Virus record (IMG/VR): IMGVR_UViG_3300005608_000028
Span: 1-21,051 of that record
Source of the DNA: a virus
Direction: 5' to 3' (one strand)
Length of the DNA stretch: 21,051 nucleotides
The notes under the pieces are model-generated. The model ran no database searches. It saw only the letters and a list, made by a program, of their open reading frames with translations, and was not told the DNA's origin. The translations under genes were made by a program, and so were the position numbers. Below are positions 3,033 through 15,986 of this stretch, one piece after another. Each line of letters starts with the position of its first letter. The first letter of the stretch is position 1.

Positions 3033-6000
3033 ATAACAAGTTCCCTGATCTGGATAGTATCATTTTGTTGCGGTGCAGTGCTGATACTAAAGTCAACTGC
3101 ATTACCAGTAACTGTGTAATCTACACCTGGGATTTGACATACACCATTCAAGAATACAAGAAGAGAATATGCTGTGTGACCTGCTGATATTGCAAATGAA
3201 GTTGTTGATCCATTACCTGAGTAAGTAACACCGTTATTACTGTTAGCAATACCAGTTGCCAATCTATATTTATCAGCAGCACCATATAATCCAGTAACAT
3301 CTAAATTACCATCAATATATGTGTTACCTTGTATCTTCATTCTATTATTTGCGTCAGGCATCACACCTATACCATAATGAGTCACACCACTAAATCTTCT
3401 TGCAGTAATTGGCGTGGTATCTGTCATACCAAACTTATACCAAGTTCCTGCCTGATACATCCAACCCATTGAGTCACCTGCTACCCAATCAATATTGTAT
3501 ATAATATCTCCGTCATTAAACGCTAGTGACCCATCAATGTCTGGTTGACCTGATCCATCATCCTCTGCTAAGAATGTCTGTCTAAGAACTGTACCATCAT
3601 CATTTGAGTATGTAAGTCTTAGAGTTTGTATATTTTCCTGTGCAGTAATTCTCTTTTGGAATGTAACTGGACCTGAGAATACAGATTCTAACTGGTTAGA
3701 TGCACCACCAATTACAGTCAGTTTATCAGTCAGAACAACCTCAGAGAATGTCTGAATGGTTGTGTTTTCTTCACCAACAACATTCAACTGTGCAATATCT
3801 TCGTTAGTGATCTGACCTGTAACTGGGTTGATAACTTGGTTTCCAACAAATAGTTCACCATCACTGTTAACACCAGAGTAGTATGCAACACCCGCTGCTT
3901 CTTTCAACGACTGTGACAGTCTGACTTGTGCAGGGGATAAAACTTCTACCTGAGTTGACGGGAACGCTGTTGAGTAATTTCCAGGTCCGAAACCTAGATA
4001 CTCAAACGTATGACCTGACGCTCTAAGAATAGAATAACGTCTAAGTTCACATAATATAGGTGCAACTGAGTTATCAGCATTTAATTTCAGTGCAATCTTT
4101 CTTTCTTCTTCATCACCTAAACGTGCAGTAACAACAATACTGTTCAATGTATTTGCTGTAGTGTTATATCCTAAATTATTTTCCTGTTCTAGTAAGAAGA
4201 ACTGTGCAGTCTCTTTTGTGATTGAAAGTTGCTTATCCTCATTTGGATTAGGTGATGCACCATCAGTTGTTGTTACAAGTCCTAGTACCTCGTTGTCTGC
4301 AACTGAGATAGCAGGTCCTGGGTCTGCAAGTGGATTATCTCTGTCAAATGTAGGATATACGTCAACAGTCTGCTGTGAAAATGCGAAGTCATCAAAGTTT
4401 GATGTTGCAGGTGACACACTACCATTAAGTATGGTTAGATAATAGATACCATCAGCGACACCACGTTCAAACTCTTGGAATGTCTCAACTTCAAAGATAT
4501 AATATGTCTTATCATATGCAGGAGAGTTAGTCTCGGATGATCTAGGTTGTATAACAAAACCAGTAATAGGAGTTCTAGGAACTGGGAAGGCATCCTTGTC
4601 TAGTACATATCTAAATCTATAGATTCTATCCTTAAGGTCTCTTGCATCTGGAACTCTACGGATGAATGTGGTAGGTGTAAATCCTAAGTTGTTATATTGA
4701 CTGTTTGCAATTAGTGTAGTGTAGATGTCATTATTTGCTGAGTCAACCTGTATGTACCAGTTAGATTGGTTGGTATCATATTTGATTGGGTTTGCATCAT
4801 CACCTGGGGATGTACCTGTAACTTCTGGTCCAGAAGGGTCAATCTTTGCAGTATGTGTTGTAGGAGCAGAAGCACCCGCTGCAACTAATAATACATTTAA
4901 AGTATCAGGTAATGTAGGTGAATCTTTTCTTGCACCTATTGTATAACCCTGTATCTTTGAGGGTGGTTTACCATTCTGATTGGTGTAACCATAAAGATAT
5001 AATTTTGTTGGGTCTGCTGCTGCTTTTATCTTCTGAATATCTAATGTAACCCAGTTGACTGATATTTCTGGAACGTCAGATAGATCTTTAGGAGGTATAA
5101 CGTGTGTTATTTGCCCTGCTTTATCTTTTGTAAATGCTGCTGACTTAAATCCTTTTGATCTTAAAGATGTATTACCAAAGTTTGAGTTAGAGTTAGTAAT
5201 TGATAAGTCACCACCACTATCTGAGAAGAAGTGATCACCAAAACCAACAGCGAAAACAGAAACCACCTGTATGAACGAGTCGTTTGATGCTTTGATATGA
5301 ACGTGTCGCCAACCTTTTCTATACTTTGCTAGACCATCAATATGTGCACCAGAACCCGCTGCTTGTGCTTCGTAGTTACCTGTTGAAGCGTTGTATTTAA
5401 CAAAAGCACGGTCGTCTTTTTGTAGTGAGATACCCGTAAACTGGGCAACAACCATAGATTTGAAACCAGTTGCTTGTGAACCATCTGCGTGCATACCGTT
5501 GATTCCCCAAACTGATCTTAATGAACAGTTGAATACGTATGGTGATGCAGAGTCAACTGTATCAATCTCAACTTTAACCAATACGTTAGAACCGATAGCA
5601 TTACCAGTTGGTTCAGAACTCATCTGATATGTAAACTGGTTGCCCTGTGCTGACGTTACAAGGAAGGATCCGTTATATAAATTTGCATCTGCCTCAGTAG
5701 GGCCCGTGACCCCTGAGATATTGACCGCGACCCCGACAGAGAAACCGTGATTAACAGGATTATCTTGTATGTCAACAGTAAACGCTGTCGCTGTCTGTCC
5801 GTTTCTGATGATCTGTGAGACTCTGAATTCATCTGAGATAGGTCCAACAATTCTATTTTCTTCTACTCTTGCCTGTAACTGGTCTTGTGCGATAGTACCA
5901 GAAGTATCAGGGATGGTTGCATATGCCTTAGAAATCTTTTGATAATAAAGATCTAGGTCTGTAGTATTCGCATACTCAAAACAAGTTATCTTATGATGTG

Positions 6001-9919: not shown

Positions 9920-10078
9920 TCAGTCTTCTCGTATGCAATATTCAGCAGCGTGCGGATTGTCAAACCCCTTCAAATCTTGTCTTGCTTGTTTAATAGCGGT
10001 GTATGCGTCTTCTGCATACTCACAGATTTCGTGGTGAATATATTGAGTATCGTGATACCCGACTGTGTAGTGATTCAT
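9920..10078 (-). CDS. small conserved-type cyanophage protein (52 aa)
   Basis: An ORF of 52 codons (MNHYTVGYHDTQYIHHEICE... ending EYCIRED) whose ATG overlaps the TAA stop of the PTOX gene by one base in a TAATG junction, indicating translational coupling. The middle (EYAEDAYTAIKQARQDL, residues 20-36) is an amphipathic helix of the kind in which alternating Ala and charged residues predominate. Proteins of this size and pattern ('YTVGYYD...AEDAY.AIKQAR') are familiar from cyanophage genomes but have no assigned function. It follows PTOX directly, so a link to redox metabolism is possible but only from context. Confidence 0.72.
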   Translation of the reverse strand: MNHYTVGYHDTQYIHHEICEYAEDAYTAIKQARQDLKGFDNPHAAEYCIRED

Positions 10079-10578
10079 TAGATTAATGACATTGCGTGTT
10101 GTAACTCTTTTGCGTGTTTGAGTTCGTCTTCTGCGATCTCTGCAATCCTTGTATCTTCTGGATGATATGCAAGATACTTAGTATAAGTTTCAAATGCGTG
10201 CTTCTCAATTTTCATATTAATATCATACGCATTTAAAGGATCTATGAAATAATATGCAACCATAGTCCAATAGTAAAATAGAACTAGATGTTTGGCAAAG
10301 AATCTGTCAATCCATTTTTCATCTCCACCTCGTTTCTCCATCTCTTCAAGATGTTCTGTTTCATTTAATGATTGCCAGAAATGTTCCTTCATAAGATAAA
10401 TGTGTTCATCACCTCTGAGTCCTAACGACTCTTTGAAATGTAAAACACTTATGAAAGAAAAATATGGTGCACGAGCAATAACTTCAAGCACCCAGAATCT
10501 TTGTATATCTCTACCCCTGTACAAATAGTCAAGGATAGATATTGTGAAGTCTAAAACAAATGTGTTTAGTTTTTTCAT
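10078..10578 (-). CDS. ptoX: compact plastoquinol terminal oxidase (PTOX, alternative oxidase family)
   Basis: PTOX oxidises plastoquinol with O2 to water at thylakoid membranes. In cyanophages it is thought to keep electron flow going when photosystem I or carbon fixation is limiting. Seen: WVLEVIARAPYFSFISVLHF (29-48), NETEHLEEME (72-81), WIDRFFAKHLVLFYYW (89-104), EKHAFETY (125-132), and DELKH (151-155). These supply all six di-iron ligands of the family: E32, E73, H76, E125, E152, H155. The spacing of E73 to E125 equals that of plant PTOX. The span from E125 to E152 is only 27 residues, against about 69 in the plant enzyme, so the connecting 'LP.P...EYY' segment is absent. At 166 residues this is a minimal form. 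TAATG junctions couple it to the genes on both sides. Confidence 0.9.
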   Translation of the reverse strand: MKKLNTFVLDFTISILDYLYRGRDIQRFWVLEVIARAPYFSFISVLHFKESLGLRGDEHIYLMKEHFWQSLNETEHLEEMEKRGGDEKWIDRFFAKHLVLFYYWTMVAYYFIDPLNAYDINMKIEKHAFETYTKYLAYHPEDTRIAEIAEDELKHAKELQHAMSLI

Positions 10579-10823
10579 TAGAATATTGCGTTAAAAATAA
10601 ATTCTTTTGTTAGTATAGGATCATTGAATAGGTCTAATTGTAAACCATCTGCATCTACAAGTACATCATCTTCAGCATCCTTGCGACAGTGCTGCCAATA
10701 ATATGTATTGTCTTCCTTTTTCCAAAAATAACTTGTGTTATGTGAGTCTAAAGTGAATACAGCAATCAACTTTTGTTTGTGTTGCCAACAAGGATTAAGT
10801 GATCTTTTTTCATATTCAGTCAC
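10578..10823 (-). CDS. small protein of unknown function upstream of PTOX (81-86 aa)
   Basis: The product (TEYEKRSLNPCWQHKQKLIA ... LFNDPILTKEFIFNAIF) has Trp, Cys and Tyr-rich central strands (SYFWKKEDNTYYWQHC) and an acidic segment (DAEDDVLVDADG). It ends at a TAATG junction with PTOX. Two starts are possible. An ATG at 10838 gives 86 residues but overlaps the upstream gene by 23 bases and has no Shine-Dalgarno sequence. A GTG at 10823 gives 81 residues, is preceded by TGGAGA four bases away, and overlaps by only eight bases. The GTG is preferred. No family is recognised. Its coupling to PTOX makes a shared role possible, which is inference only. Confidence 0.65.
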   Translation of the reverse strand: MTEYEKRSLNPCWQHKQKLIAVFTLDSHNTSYFWKKEDNTYYWQHCRKDAEDDVLVDADGLQLDLFNDPILTKEFIFNAIF

Positions 10824-11115
10824 GTTGTCTCCAGTCATCGGATCTGTCTGGTCTAAACCAATCTACAATTTCGTCTGGACTATCGAAACCCCTTTTATGT
10901 GTTCTTGAATCGGGGTCTCCAATATTCAAGTTATTCAGAAAAGAATCGTTCGGATTCGTTGCTTGTCTTCTTGCTTGTTTTATCATACCTCTAGCACTGG
11001 TATTTGCTTTCGCTAATTTTTGTGCCCAAATCATATCGTCAATGCTGACTTCTGTTCCTGCTGCAATAGATTTGCAGATACCTTCTAACCGAAGGCGGTA
11101 TGCTGTAGATAACAT
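10816..11115 (-). CDS. conserved-type cyanophage hypothetical protein (99 aa)
   Basis: The sequence begins MLSTAYRLRLEGICKSIAAG and continues with an amphipathic, Arg/Lys/Ala-rich helical stretch (DDMIWAQKLAKANTSARGMI, then KQARRQ). It then has an extended polar linker and ends SPDEIVDWFRPDRSDDWRQRD. From memory, this arrangement is common in T4-like cyanophage genomes, next to small membrane proteins. The Arg-rich helix and Asp/Trp-rich tail suggest a protein-binding adaptor, possibly a virion component, but there is no firm evidence. The next gene starts within its last codons. No Shine-Dalgarno sequence is visible before the ATG at 11115. Confidence 0.7.
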   Translation of the reverse strand: MLSTAYRLRLEGICKSIAAGTEVSIDDMIWAQKLAKANTSARGMIKQARRQATNPNDSFLNNLNIGDPDSRTHKRGFDSPDEIVDWFRPDRSDDWRQRD

Positions 11116-11785: not shown

Positions 11786-12046
11786 TTAATAGGGTATTTC
11801 TTCTTCACAATGAATCAAATGTGCATCTAATTCAAATATTATTGGATGACATAATTCTTGTATGAGATAAGAAGAAGATCTATAAATCTCCTCCATTGTA
11901 CACCAAGAATTTTTATTTGCCAAATCTATTGTTTGGGAATCAGGATTTTGTATTTCGTCGAAAGTGAATGCTAAACCGTTAAGATAATAAATTCTACACA
12001 ATCCTATTTTTACGACATAACGGAAGTCGGAATAGATGCGGTACAT
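11786..12046 (-). CDS. hypothetical protein downstream of cpeT (86 aa)
   Basis: The product begins MYRIYSDFRYVVKIGLCRIY and ends ELDAHLIHCEEEIPY. It mixes aromatic strands with an acidic, Glu-rich end and has cysteines at about 17, 49, 66 and 80. There is no signal peptide or clear membrane span. Its ATG at 12046 lies 37 bases inside the cpeT reading frame and lacks a Shine-Dalgarno sequence, so the true start could lie further in. No family is recognised. It may be expressed by coupling to cpeT. Being open over 86 codons, in the sense of all its neighbours and filling the gap, it is probably real. Confidence 0.6.
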   Translation of the reverse strand: MYRIYSDFRYVVKIGLCRIYYLNGLAFTFDEIQNPDSQTIDLANKNSWCTMEEIYRSSSYLIQELCHPIIFELDAHLIHCEEEIPY

Positions 12047-12477
12047 TTGCTGAATAAGAAAGGACCTTTTTTAGAACCCCAGAGCAATTCCCCTTCCTCA
12101 TTATATCCCTTATCATCAGACTCAAAAGAATCCTTAGTTAAGGTTATTGTAGAAACAACTACACCTCTGCCATTGTGAGCATTAGGTTCGTTCTTACCTA
12201 TCCAACCTCTTTCACTTTCTGTGAAGATTAGACTAGGCATTTTTTTATCAGCGTTAAATGTTTCTAATAATATGTGATCTTTTTTAGAAACGACGTTATG
12301 TGTTCGTTCACGATACACTTCTCCGTTCCAGTCATACCACTGTTTTGATGCTAGTCGTCCGTTACTATCAAAATACCAATGATAATGTATATAAGCAAAG
12401 GACGAAGGCCACATCTGTGCTTGTCGCAAATTGTGCCAGTGGTGAACCAAAAGATCCAGAAAGGGTTGTTGATCCAT
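12010..12477 (-). CDS. cpeT: phycobilin lyase, CpeT/CpcT family
   Basis: T-type lyases hold an open-chain bilin in a small beta-barrel and attach it to a cysteine of phycobiliprotein beta-subunits in the light-harvesting antenna. Seen: FLDLLVHHWHNLRQAQ (6-21), FAYIHYHWYF (27-36), YRERTHNVV (55-63), matching the family's 'PYR.R...', and DKGYNEEGELLWGSKKGPF (122-140), matching the C-terminal 'D.G.D..G...WGS..GPF.F'. At 155 residues it is shorter than cyanobacterial CpeT (about 200) but in line with cyanophage versions. Cyanophage CpeT (from P-HM1) has been shown to bind phycoerythrobilin. It lies 15 bases after the Phd-like gene, with an AT-rich leader and no evident Shine-Dalgarno sequence. 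It marks the host as a phycobiliprotein-containing picocyanobacterium. Confidence 0.85.
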   Translation of the reverse strand: MDQQPFLDLLVHHWHNLRQAQMWPSSFAYIHYHWYFDSNGRLASKQWYDWNGEVYRERTHNVVSKKDHILLETFNADKKMPSLIFTESERGWIGKNEPNAHNGRGVVVSTITLTKDSFESDDKGYNEEGELLWGSKKGPFLFSKCTASIPTSVMS

Positions 12478-12492
12478 CGTATATTTTATATA

Positions 12493-12765
12493 TTATAGTT
12501 GCTCTTTAAGTTCATCTAATGTTTCAGTCACGTAACTTTTGACTTCTGCATCACTTGGCAAGGTAACACCAGGTATAGGAGGTGGTGGACCTGTCATAGG
12601 TATGGGTGGAGTTTCTAACGCTTCAACCTCTAGTTGTCCGTTAGGAATTCCATTCATTAATATGTTTCCTTTATCTGACTCAATAAGAACTGTCTCTCCA
12701 CGTTCTACAAGTGTAAAAAGAAATTTGAGGTTAGTAATCGCCTCGTCTTTAGTTACTCTAATCAT
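12493..12765 (-). CDS. small protein with Phd/YefM-like N-terminus and Pro-rich linker (90 aa)
   Basis: Residues 1-42 (MIRVTKDEAITNLKFLFTLV then ERGETVLIE) follow the layout of Phd/YefM antitoxin N-termini: a strand 'i.VT..EA', a helix 'NL..L...VE.GE', then a strand 'V.I'. Residues 43-72 are a proline-rich linker (PPIPMTGPPPPIPG) and the rest is an acidic helix (DAEVKSYVTETLDELKEQL). No toxin gene adjoins it, and cyanophage homologues may simply be conserved unknowns. The start ATG overlaps the previous stop in an ATGA junction, so translation is coupled. The antitoxin-like reading is tentative; a structural accessory role is equally possible, since the gene sits right after gp5. Confidence 0.7.
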   Translation of the reverse strand: MIRVTKDEAITNLKFLFTLVERGETVLIESDKGNILMNGIPNGQLEVEALETPPIPMTGPPPPIPGVTLPSDAEVKSYVTETLDELKEQL

Positions 12766-15425: not shown

Positions 15426-15433
15426 TATTTATG
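15426..15433 (-). promoter_or_regulatory. late promoter-like CATAAATA for gp5
   Basis: CATAAATA on the minus strand, one base off the T4 late consensus TATAAATA, lies 21 bases before the gp5 ATG and overlaps the TAA stop of the oxygenase gene. Distance to the start codon is nearly the same as for the other late motifs in this window. Confidence 0.55.
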
Positions 15434-15986
15434 CGTAGGAAATCCATCCTGTAGCGATCATTTTTTCTTCGGGTGATGTAAGACCGTGATGAACGTGAGT
15501 CCAATCTGCTGGCCAAAACACTGTTAAACCTTTCTCAGGTTTTATTTTTTTATCTTGATGTACCCAGTATGTTTCACCACCTTCATTAACTGTATTTAAG
15601 TAAGTCATCCAAGCAAGATGCCTATAGGATGCAGTCTTACCAGACCCAATTCTTTCACAATGAGGGCGGTGATAACCACCTGTATTTGCGGTGTACCATT
15701 GTATATTAAACGGTTCATTTAATTCAACTGGTGCCATACAAGCGTACGGGAACTTTTCAAGGTATTTATCAAGAACTGTTTGTAGTTCTCCTAAGAAAAT
15801 ACGAACTGCTTTCTCATTGAGAAAGGGTGGTATTGCCATATCAACAGACTTCTTGATGGTAGGGTCTACACCATCAGAGAACTCTCCATTAACCTTTTTA
15901 AGATAAGTACAATTATCCCAAAATTCCAGTAAATTGTCAATAGTGAGATCACTTATATGATCTCCATAGATAAAATCAGTCGTCAT
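15429..15986 (-). CDS. 2-oxoglutarate/Fe(II)-dependent oxygenase (prolyl 4-hydroxylase-like)
   Basis: This superfamily uses 2-oxoglutarate and O2 to hydroxylate proteins, nucleic acids or small molecules. The double-stranded beta-helix core shows the iron triad: H109 and E111 in GGYHRPHCERIG, and a distal His in WTHVHHG (H166 or H167). K175 (SPEEKMIATGW) takes the place of the 2-oxoglutarate-binding Lys, as in prolyl 4-hydroxylases. Between them are the core strands LAWMTYLNTVNEGGETYW and GLTVFWPADW. The proximal pair is HxE rather than the commoner HxD, which is tolerated in the superfamily. It starts 11 bases inside the preceding gene. T4-like cyanophages commonly carry several such genes, with unknown substrates. 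Here it sits between two hub genes, so a virion-protein substrate is possible but unproven. Confidence 0.88.
   Translation of the reverse strand: MTTDFIYGDHISDLTIDNLLEFWDNCTYLKKVNGEFSDGVDPTIKKSVDMAIPPFLNEKAVRIFLGELQTVLDKYLEKFPYACMAPVELNEPFNIQWYTANTGGYHRPHCERIGSGKTASYRHLAWMTYLNTVNEGGETYWVHQDKKIKPEKGLTVFWPADWTHVHHGLTSPEEKMIATGWISYA

Follow-up and report, generated by a model that had tools for sequence, protein, structure and literature searches.

The DNA analysed here spans 21 kb of a virus record (IMGVR_UViG_3300005608_000028, positions 1 to 21,051; hereafter the window, meaning this whole stretch). In this fragment, T4-like cyanophage tail genes surround ptoX, a gene for a compact plastoquinol terminal oxidase (PTOX) at 10078..10578 on the minus strand. 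A first-pass annotation, made from the sequence alone, had read this gene as a PTOX of 166 residues, and both points were borne out: the ORF at 10078-10578 (-) translates to 166 aa, its residues 1-166 align without a gap to positions 1-166 of the 167-position phrog_4235 profile ('plastoquinol terminal oxidase', E 9e-90), and the Pfam AOX family PF01786 is matched at E 5.5e-12, with 46.2 bits against a curated cut-off of 22.7. In length (about 166 aa), in its ungapped match over the profile and in a distance of 26-28 residues between iron ligands 4 and 5 (the linker), the protein fits the compact PTOX of cyanophages and Prochlorococcus.

Two small minus-strand ORFs lie upstream of ptoX, namely an 86-aa ORF (phrog_14292, 10578..10838) that overlaps the ptoX start and adjoins ptoX in several other phages, and a 99-aa ORF (phrog_507, 10816..11115) that, by the gene order table, often travels with ptoX, either before or after it. 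The order of the two around ptoX varies (10578-11115 (-) here; loci L082, L084, L007 and L066): they are downstream in S-SSM7 and on both sides in L007, and MED4-213 carries phrog_507 alone, downstream of ptoX. The two ORFs and ptoX may form a small mobile module. Also on the minus strand are a CpeT-like gene (12010-12477), a relative of Phd-like antitoxins recognised by a weak match (12493-12765) and a 2OG-Fe(II) oxygenase (15429-15986).

The di-iron ligand order E, ExxH, E, ExxH is present in the window PTOX as E32, E73xxH76, E125 and E152xxH155. All six residues, which the first-pass annotation had proposed to be kept, are invariant in a set of 114 sequences (non-redundant at 97%, with divergence of up to 47%). 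For comparison, the iron ligands of the Trypanosoma brucei AOX (TAO) are E123, E162, H165, E213, E266 and H269, and its Y220 is redox-active (PMC9246349, PMC4682143). Ligand 1, E32 (10483..10485 (-), helix 24-51), matches TAO E123; ligands 2 and 3, E73 (10360..10362 (-), helix 59-82) and H76 (10351..10353 (-)), align with TAO E162 and H165; ligand 4, E125 (10204..10206 (-), helix 114-138), corresponds to TAO E213; and ligands 5 and 6, E152 (10123..10125 (-), helix 143-165) and H155 (10114..10116 (-)), align with the canonical DDE..H. TAO has its quinol cavity between helices 1 and 4, R118 and T219 are contacted by inhibitors, and the dimer is built from helices 2, 3 and 4 (PMC9246349, PMC4682143). 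The quinol-site residues of the window PTOX, R27 (E32-5), T131 (E125+6) and Y132 (E125+7), stand at offsets identical to those of TAO R118, T219 and Y220. Y132 (10183..10185 (-)), which is invariant in the 114 sequences, matches the redox-active Y220 (role from PMC4682143), with both found seven residues after ligand 4.

The shortened stretch runs from ligand 4 to ligand 5 (10123..10206 (-), exactly codons 152-125), where spacing counts and profile alignment give 27 residues versus 69, in agreement with the initial reading. We took this distance in every PTOX/AOX frame retrieved and found that the lengths fall in discrete classes, with counts that contain some near-duplicates: 172 viral and 97 host sequences have a linker of 27, the latter all with a Prochlorococcus-type gene; three viral sequences (S-N03 and two uncultured contigs, the sole such viruses among those measured) and five small-genome host sequences have 60; and 18 other, canonical cyanobacterial sequences have 69, or 68 in one case. 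The corresponding distance is 51 in 16/16 Pseudomonadota AOX measured and 53 in TAO (E213-E266). A broader viral scan added 78 more at 26-28 (57 at 27, 20 at 28 and one at 26), with two frames cut short. Among all PTOX/AOX frames measured, no length between 28 and 51 was seen, and a search of the viral contigs for canonical 69-linker PTOX found none; a search for prasinovirus PTOX, sought for its linker length, recovered no sequence. One viral entry, H8ZJQ8 (201 aa, 38% identity over 184 alignment columns), may carry about 19 extra residues.

Elsewhere, the ligand 2-ligand 4 distance is 52 in both short and canonical PTOX, so that the E73-E125 spacing is normal, as had been noted, and it is 53 in the 60-linker class and 51 in AOX. 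The E32-E73 distance is 41 (versus 39), and the tail beyond the last His comprises 11 residues versus 28-57 in canonical forms. Profile-profile alignment with canonical PTOX (E = 2.4e-46) opened one gap only, of 42 residues, between positions 142 and 143, and set D151-E152..H155 on DDE..H, which accords with the annotated loss of about 40 residues and of the region carrying 'LP.P...EYY'. The GDLYxF..QT...RxP segment of the canonical 69-residue linker is likewise absent. When solved structures were searched with the profile, the same residues were paired to TAO E266/H269 across a 26-residue gap, at a weak E-value of 0.35-0.55. Plain MAFFT alignment of mixed linker types misplaces the last helix; its position is right in the profile alignment and in the match to TAO. 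Relative to AOX (51-53), the short linker loses just 24-26 residues, the other 16-18 being an insertion peculiar to canonical PTOX.

We modelled the window PTOX with AlphaFold2 from a 58-sequence alignment (mean pLDDT 92.6, pTM 0.85). Six long helices are predicted (2-19, 24-51, 59-82, 89-112, 114-138 and 143-165), of which 24-51, 59-82, 114-138 and 143-165 make up the ligand-bearing bundle; closure of this bundle around the iron site, whose failure the first-pass annotation would have taken as the mark of a relic, is predicted. Between helices 114-138 and 143-165, a four-residue turn (residues 139-142, 10153..10164 (-)) ending in the invariant D142 takes the place of the missing connector. 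The top matches among solved structures are all TAO chains, with query-normalised TM scores of 0.74-0.87, mostly at 2.1-3.1 Å (about 2.3-2.6 Å for the best) and with Foldseek E-values of about 0.002-0.05; ferritins rank next, at TM scores of about 0.47-0.52. Sequence and fold searches alike found trypanosome AOX alone as a solved structure of the AOX/PTOX family. Compared with TAO (PDB 3vv9, 9m2a and 9kun), the predicted fold superposes at a TM score of 0.86 and about 2.5 Å, with the ligands and the R118/T219/Y220 equivalents in common, but the two proteins share only 15-19% identity, and the N-terminal arm and C-terminal extension of TAO are missing in the phage protein. The model is also predicted to keep counterparts of the helices used in the dimer and in monotopic membrane attachment. 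A control model of the 60-linker protein of contig L298 keeps all six helices and adds two short ones in the connector, at low confidence (block pLDDT of 60-64). The 42 missing residues therefore look, in these models, like a surface connector of the relatives that belongs neither to the bundle nor to the quinol channel or the dimer helices.

In plant PTOX, exon 8 corresponds to a segment of 16 residues that AOX is not known to contain. Since 69 minus 53 equals 16, the residues lost from the window PTOX probably include the counterpart of exon 8. Work on Chlamydomonas PTOX1 cites exon 8 as something that PTOX needs to be stable in structure and function (PMC3404998), so that loss of the segment could impair the activity of the window PTOX.

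The first-pass annotation had presented the minimal PTOX as unusual unless other cyanophages shared the deletion. They do: nearly every viral PTOX found has a linker of 26-28 residues, as does that of Prochlorococcus, and a deletion unique to the window phage is rejected. Of 101 phage records, 99 have matches that cover 80% or more of the window PTOX. The cyanophage PTOX of phrog_4235 (for example MED4-213 CPMG_00130, P-HM1, P-SSM4 and Syn9) align at full length without gaps, at 60-83% identity, with the same length, ligands and 27-residue linker, and differ by ordinary divergence and by neighbourhood, the window ptoX sitting among tail genes and near the cpeT-like gene. Prochlorococcus PTOX similarly has a linker of 27 and 65-68% identity over all 166 residues, but is chromosomal and has a few more C-terminal residues (mostly 169 aa). 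The window protein is therefore an ordinary, routine member of a well-sampled compact family, and the claim of novelty for the phage itself was wrong. Cyanophage PTOX is a widespread gene, discovered in P-SSM4 and Syn9 (PMC2984593), and a 2010 table already lists the PTOX genes of nine phages as 501-507 bp long (PMC3037559). We found no description of the missing connector in the literature searched, and we do not claim that it has gone unnoticed.

More distant relatives share the ligands and differ in the linker. Canonical cyanobacterial PTOX has the same helix order and 38% identity in the profile alignment, but a linker of 69 with a conserved 'APxxAxxYYxDGDLYxFxxxQT...RxP' and a longer C-terminal tail. 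The Synechococcus-type PTOX of small-genome marine picocyanobacteria and that of S-N03 belong to the same family and have a similarly short C-terminus, yet they are of a different lineage, with a linker of 60 and about 28-31% identity. S-N03 (L085:2944-3567) and contigs L298 and L299 carry this different, picocyanobacterium-related form (linker 60, 28-31% identity to the window PTOX), so cyanophages acquired PTOX at least twice.

Several further observations were made in this survey. A deep-branching compact group with an LET motif (RFWVLETIARAPYF) is found in L305, L313 and similar viral contigs. Other viral compact PTOX combine a 28-residue linker with about 30 extra residues, conserved among them, at the C-terminus (DP..LTVREKDR..FPPD.SDL); they are found in viral contigs L327, L329, L331, L334-L337, L347 and L352, and also in L353, L359, L361, L363, L370 and L372. 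The annotated ptoX CDS of S-RSM4 (L088:2154-2504, 351 bp) starts 153 bases late, since the full frame begins at 2001 of the locus; as a result, the protein in the database is only 116 residues long. In the cyanobacterial genome G162 (L192 / L214, contig C157), a canonical PTOX frame is split around ligand 4, with matches ending and starting near 3504-3509. An apparent short-type PTOX in cyanobacterium G388 (5.5 Mb) was rejected as a truncated canonical gene, and one in a Pelagibacteraceae MAG (L118) is most likely Prochlorococcus contamination, because it is 67% identical to the window PTOX, like the Prochlorococcus copies.

With regard to the origin of the compact form, Prochlorococcus PTOX forms one clade (99/98) nested within the phage sequences in our tree. 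Prochlorococcus and phage PTOX are known to group together, away from Synechococcus PTOX, and transfer from phage to Prochlorococcus has been suggested (PMC12584671, PMC5082946). Tentatively, the compact enzymes may be a structural class of alternative oxidase in their own right, trimmed to its catalytic core in a single step within a viral lineage, remaining active without the exon 8 region, and then passed to Prochlorococcus, whose own PTOX it would now be. That the compact form instead had its origin in Prochlorococcus or some other cell, from which phages captured it, appears rather unlikely: phage metabolic genes are usually host-derived, long branches lie between short and long types, and the true source could be missing from the hosts sampled, but Prochlorococcus is a single clade inside the phages, the same topology is reported in PMC12584671, and forcing all phages into one clade lowers lnL by 12.7 and is rejected (p-AU 0.005, for a group chosen after seeing the tree and with long branches).

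Whichever its origin, the protein could be an AOX-fold di-iron protein whose chemistry or substrate has drifted (to another quinol, or to iron or peroxide handling) and which is no longer a plastoquinol oxidase. Identity to canonical forms is 36-39%, the protein is distant from biochemically studied PTOX, and its next structural neighbours are ferritin-like folds. We nevertheless consider this improbable: R27, T131 and Y132 are kept and invariant, the TAO match is far better than the ferritin match, and other phages carry ptoX next to petE or ferredoxin, together with gnd/zwf, or close to psbA/psbD. A working quinol oxidase is the simplest reading, because the key TAO residues have counterparts at the same offsets and none of them falls in the missing segment.

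A relic that lost its function along with the connector is less probable still. The missing segment does contain residues highly conserved in canonical PTOX (GDLY, QT and R..P), and the exon 8 region of plant PTOX has been reported to be essential. Against this, 64 of 163 positions are invariant across the 114 sequences, including the six ligands, R27, T131, the catalytic Tyr and D142, and the last of these, just before the final helix, is also kept in 78/78 further viral sequences. The median dN/dS is 0.08 over 4873 pairs (0.09 in phages, 0.07 in hosts), and it is 0.08 for the shortened stretch alone. Moreover, a single discrete linker length is held across hundreds of sequences, a closed fold is confidently predicted, and Prochlorococcus retains the same form in its streamlined genome, where the PTOX transcript rises during infection (PMC5082946). 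Given the invariant ligands, the low dN/dS and the predicted closed fold, we reject the relic as very unlikely. An annotation, frame or assembly artefact of the window contig, in favour of which we found nothing, is already refuted as the source of the short linker, since the same ungapped frame of 166-170 residues occurs in the isolates MED4-213, P-HM1, P-SSM4 and Syn9 and in host genomes.

Taken together, these results point to an ordinary compact-family PTOX of T4-like cyanophages and Prochlorococcus, very probably a di-iron quinol oxidase on the thylakoid membrane that drains over-reduced plastoquinone. From its residues and model, the window PTOX is most likely a working plastoquinol oxidase, whose catalysis, membrane binding and physiological role we infer from the family. 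The enzyme would be attached to one face of the thylakoid membrane, with helices 24-51, 59-82, 114-138 and 143-165 holding two irons through E32, E73, H76, E125, E152 and H155, and with helices 2-19 and 89-112 putatively taking the part of the membrane-facing helices along the quinol channel. Plastoquinol would enter at these two helices, be held near R27 and T131 and be oxidised with the participation of Y132, while O2 is reduced to water; the turn ending in D142 would stand in for the 42-residue connector. In the published model of infection, FNR transcripts drop and electrons exit via PTOX or cytochrome oxidase (PMC5082946). Because such models route electrons through PTOX, we suggest that during infection the phage enzyme would take electrons from the over-reduced plastoquinone pool when electron flow past photosystem I is curtailed.

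The suggestion in the first-pass annotation that this protein could reveal dispensable parts of the enzyme gains support at the level of the family, in which the ligand 4-ligand 5 connector is absent throughout and the ligands are intact. This lack in Prochlorococcus and phage PTOX as a whole is more useful than the window protein taken alone: comparison with plant or freshwater cyanobacterial PTOX offers a natural test of whether catalysis, stability, partner binding or regulation depends on the connector, and its small size makes compact PTOX a candidate for structure determination. If exon 8 does lie in the missing stretch, an essential part of plant PTOX would have been dispensed with in a marine lineage.
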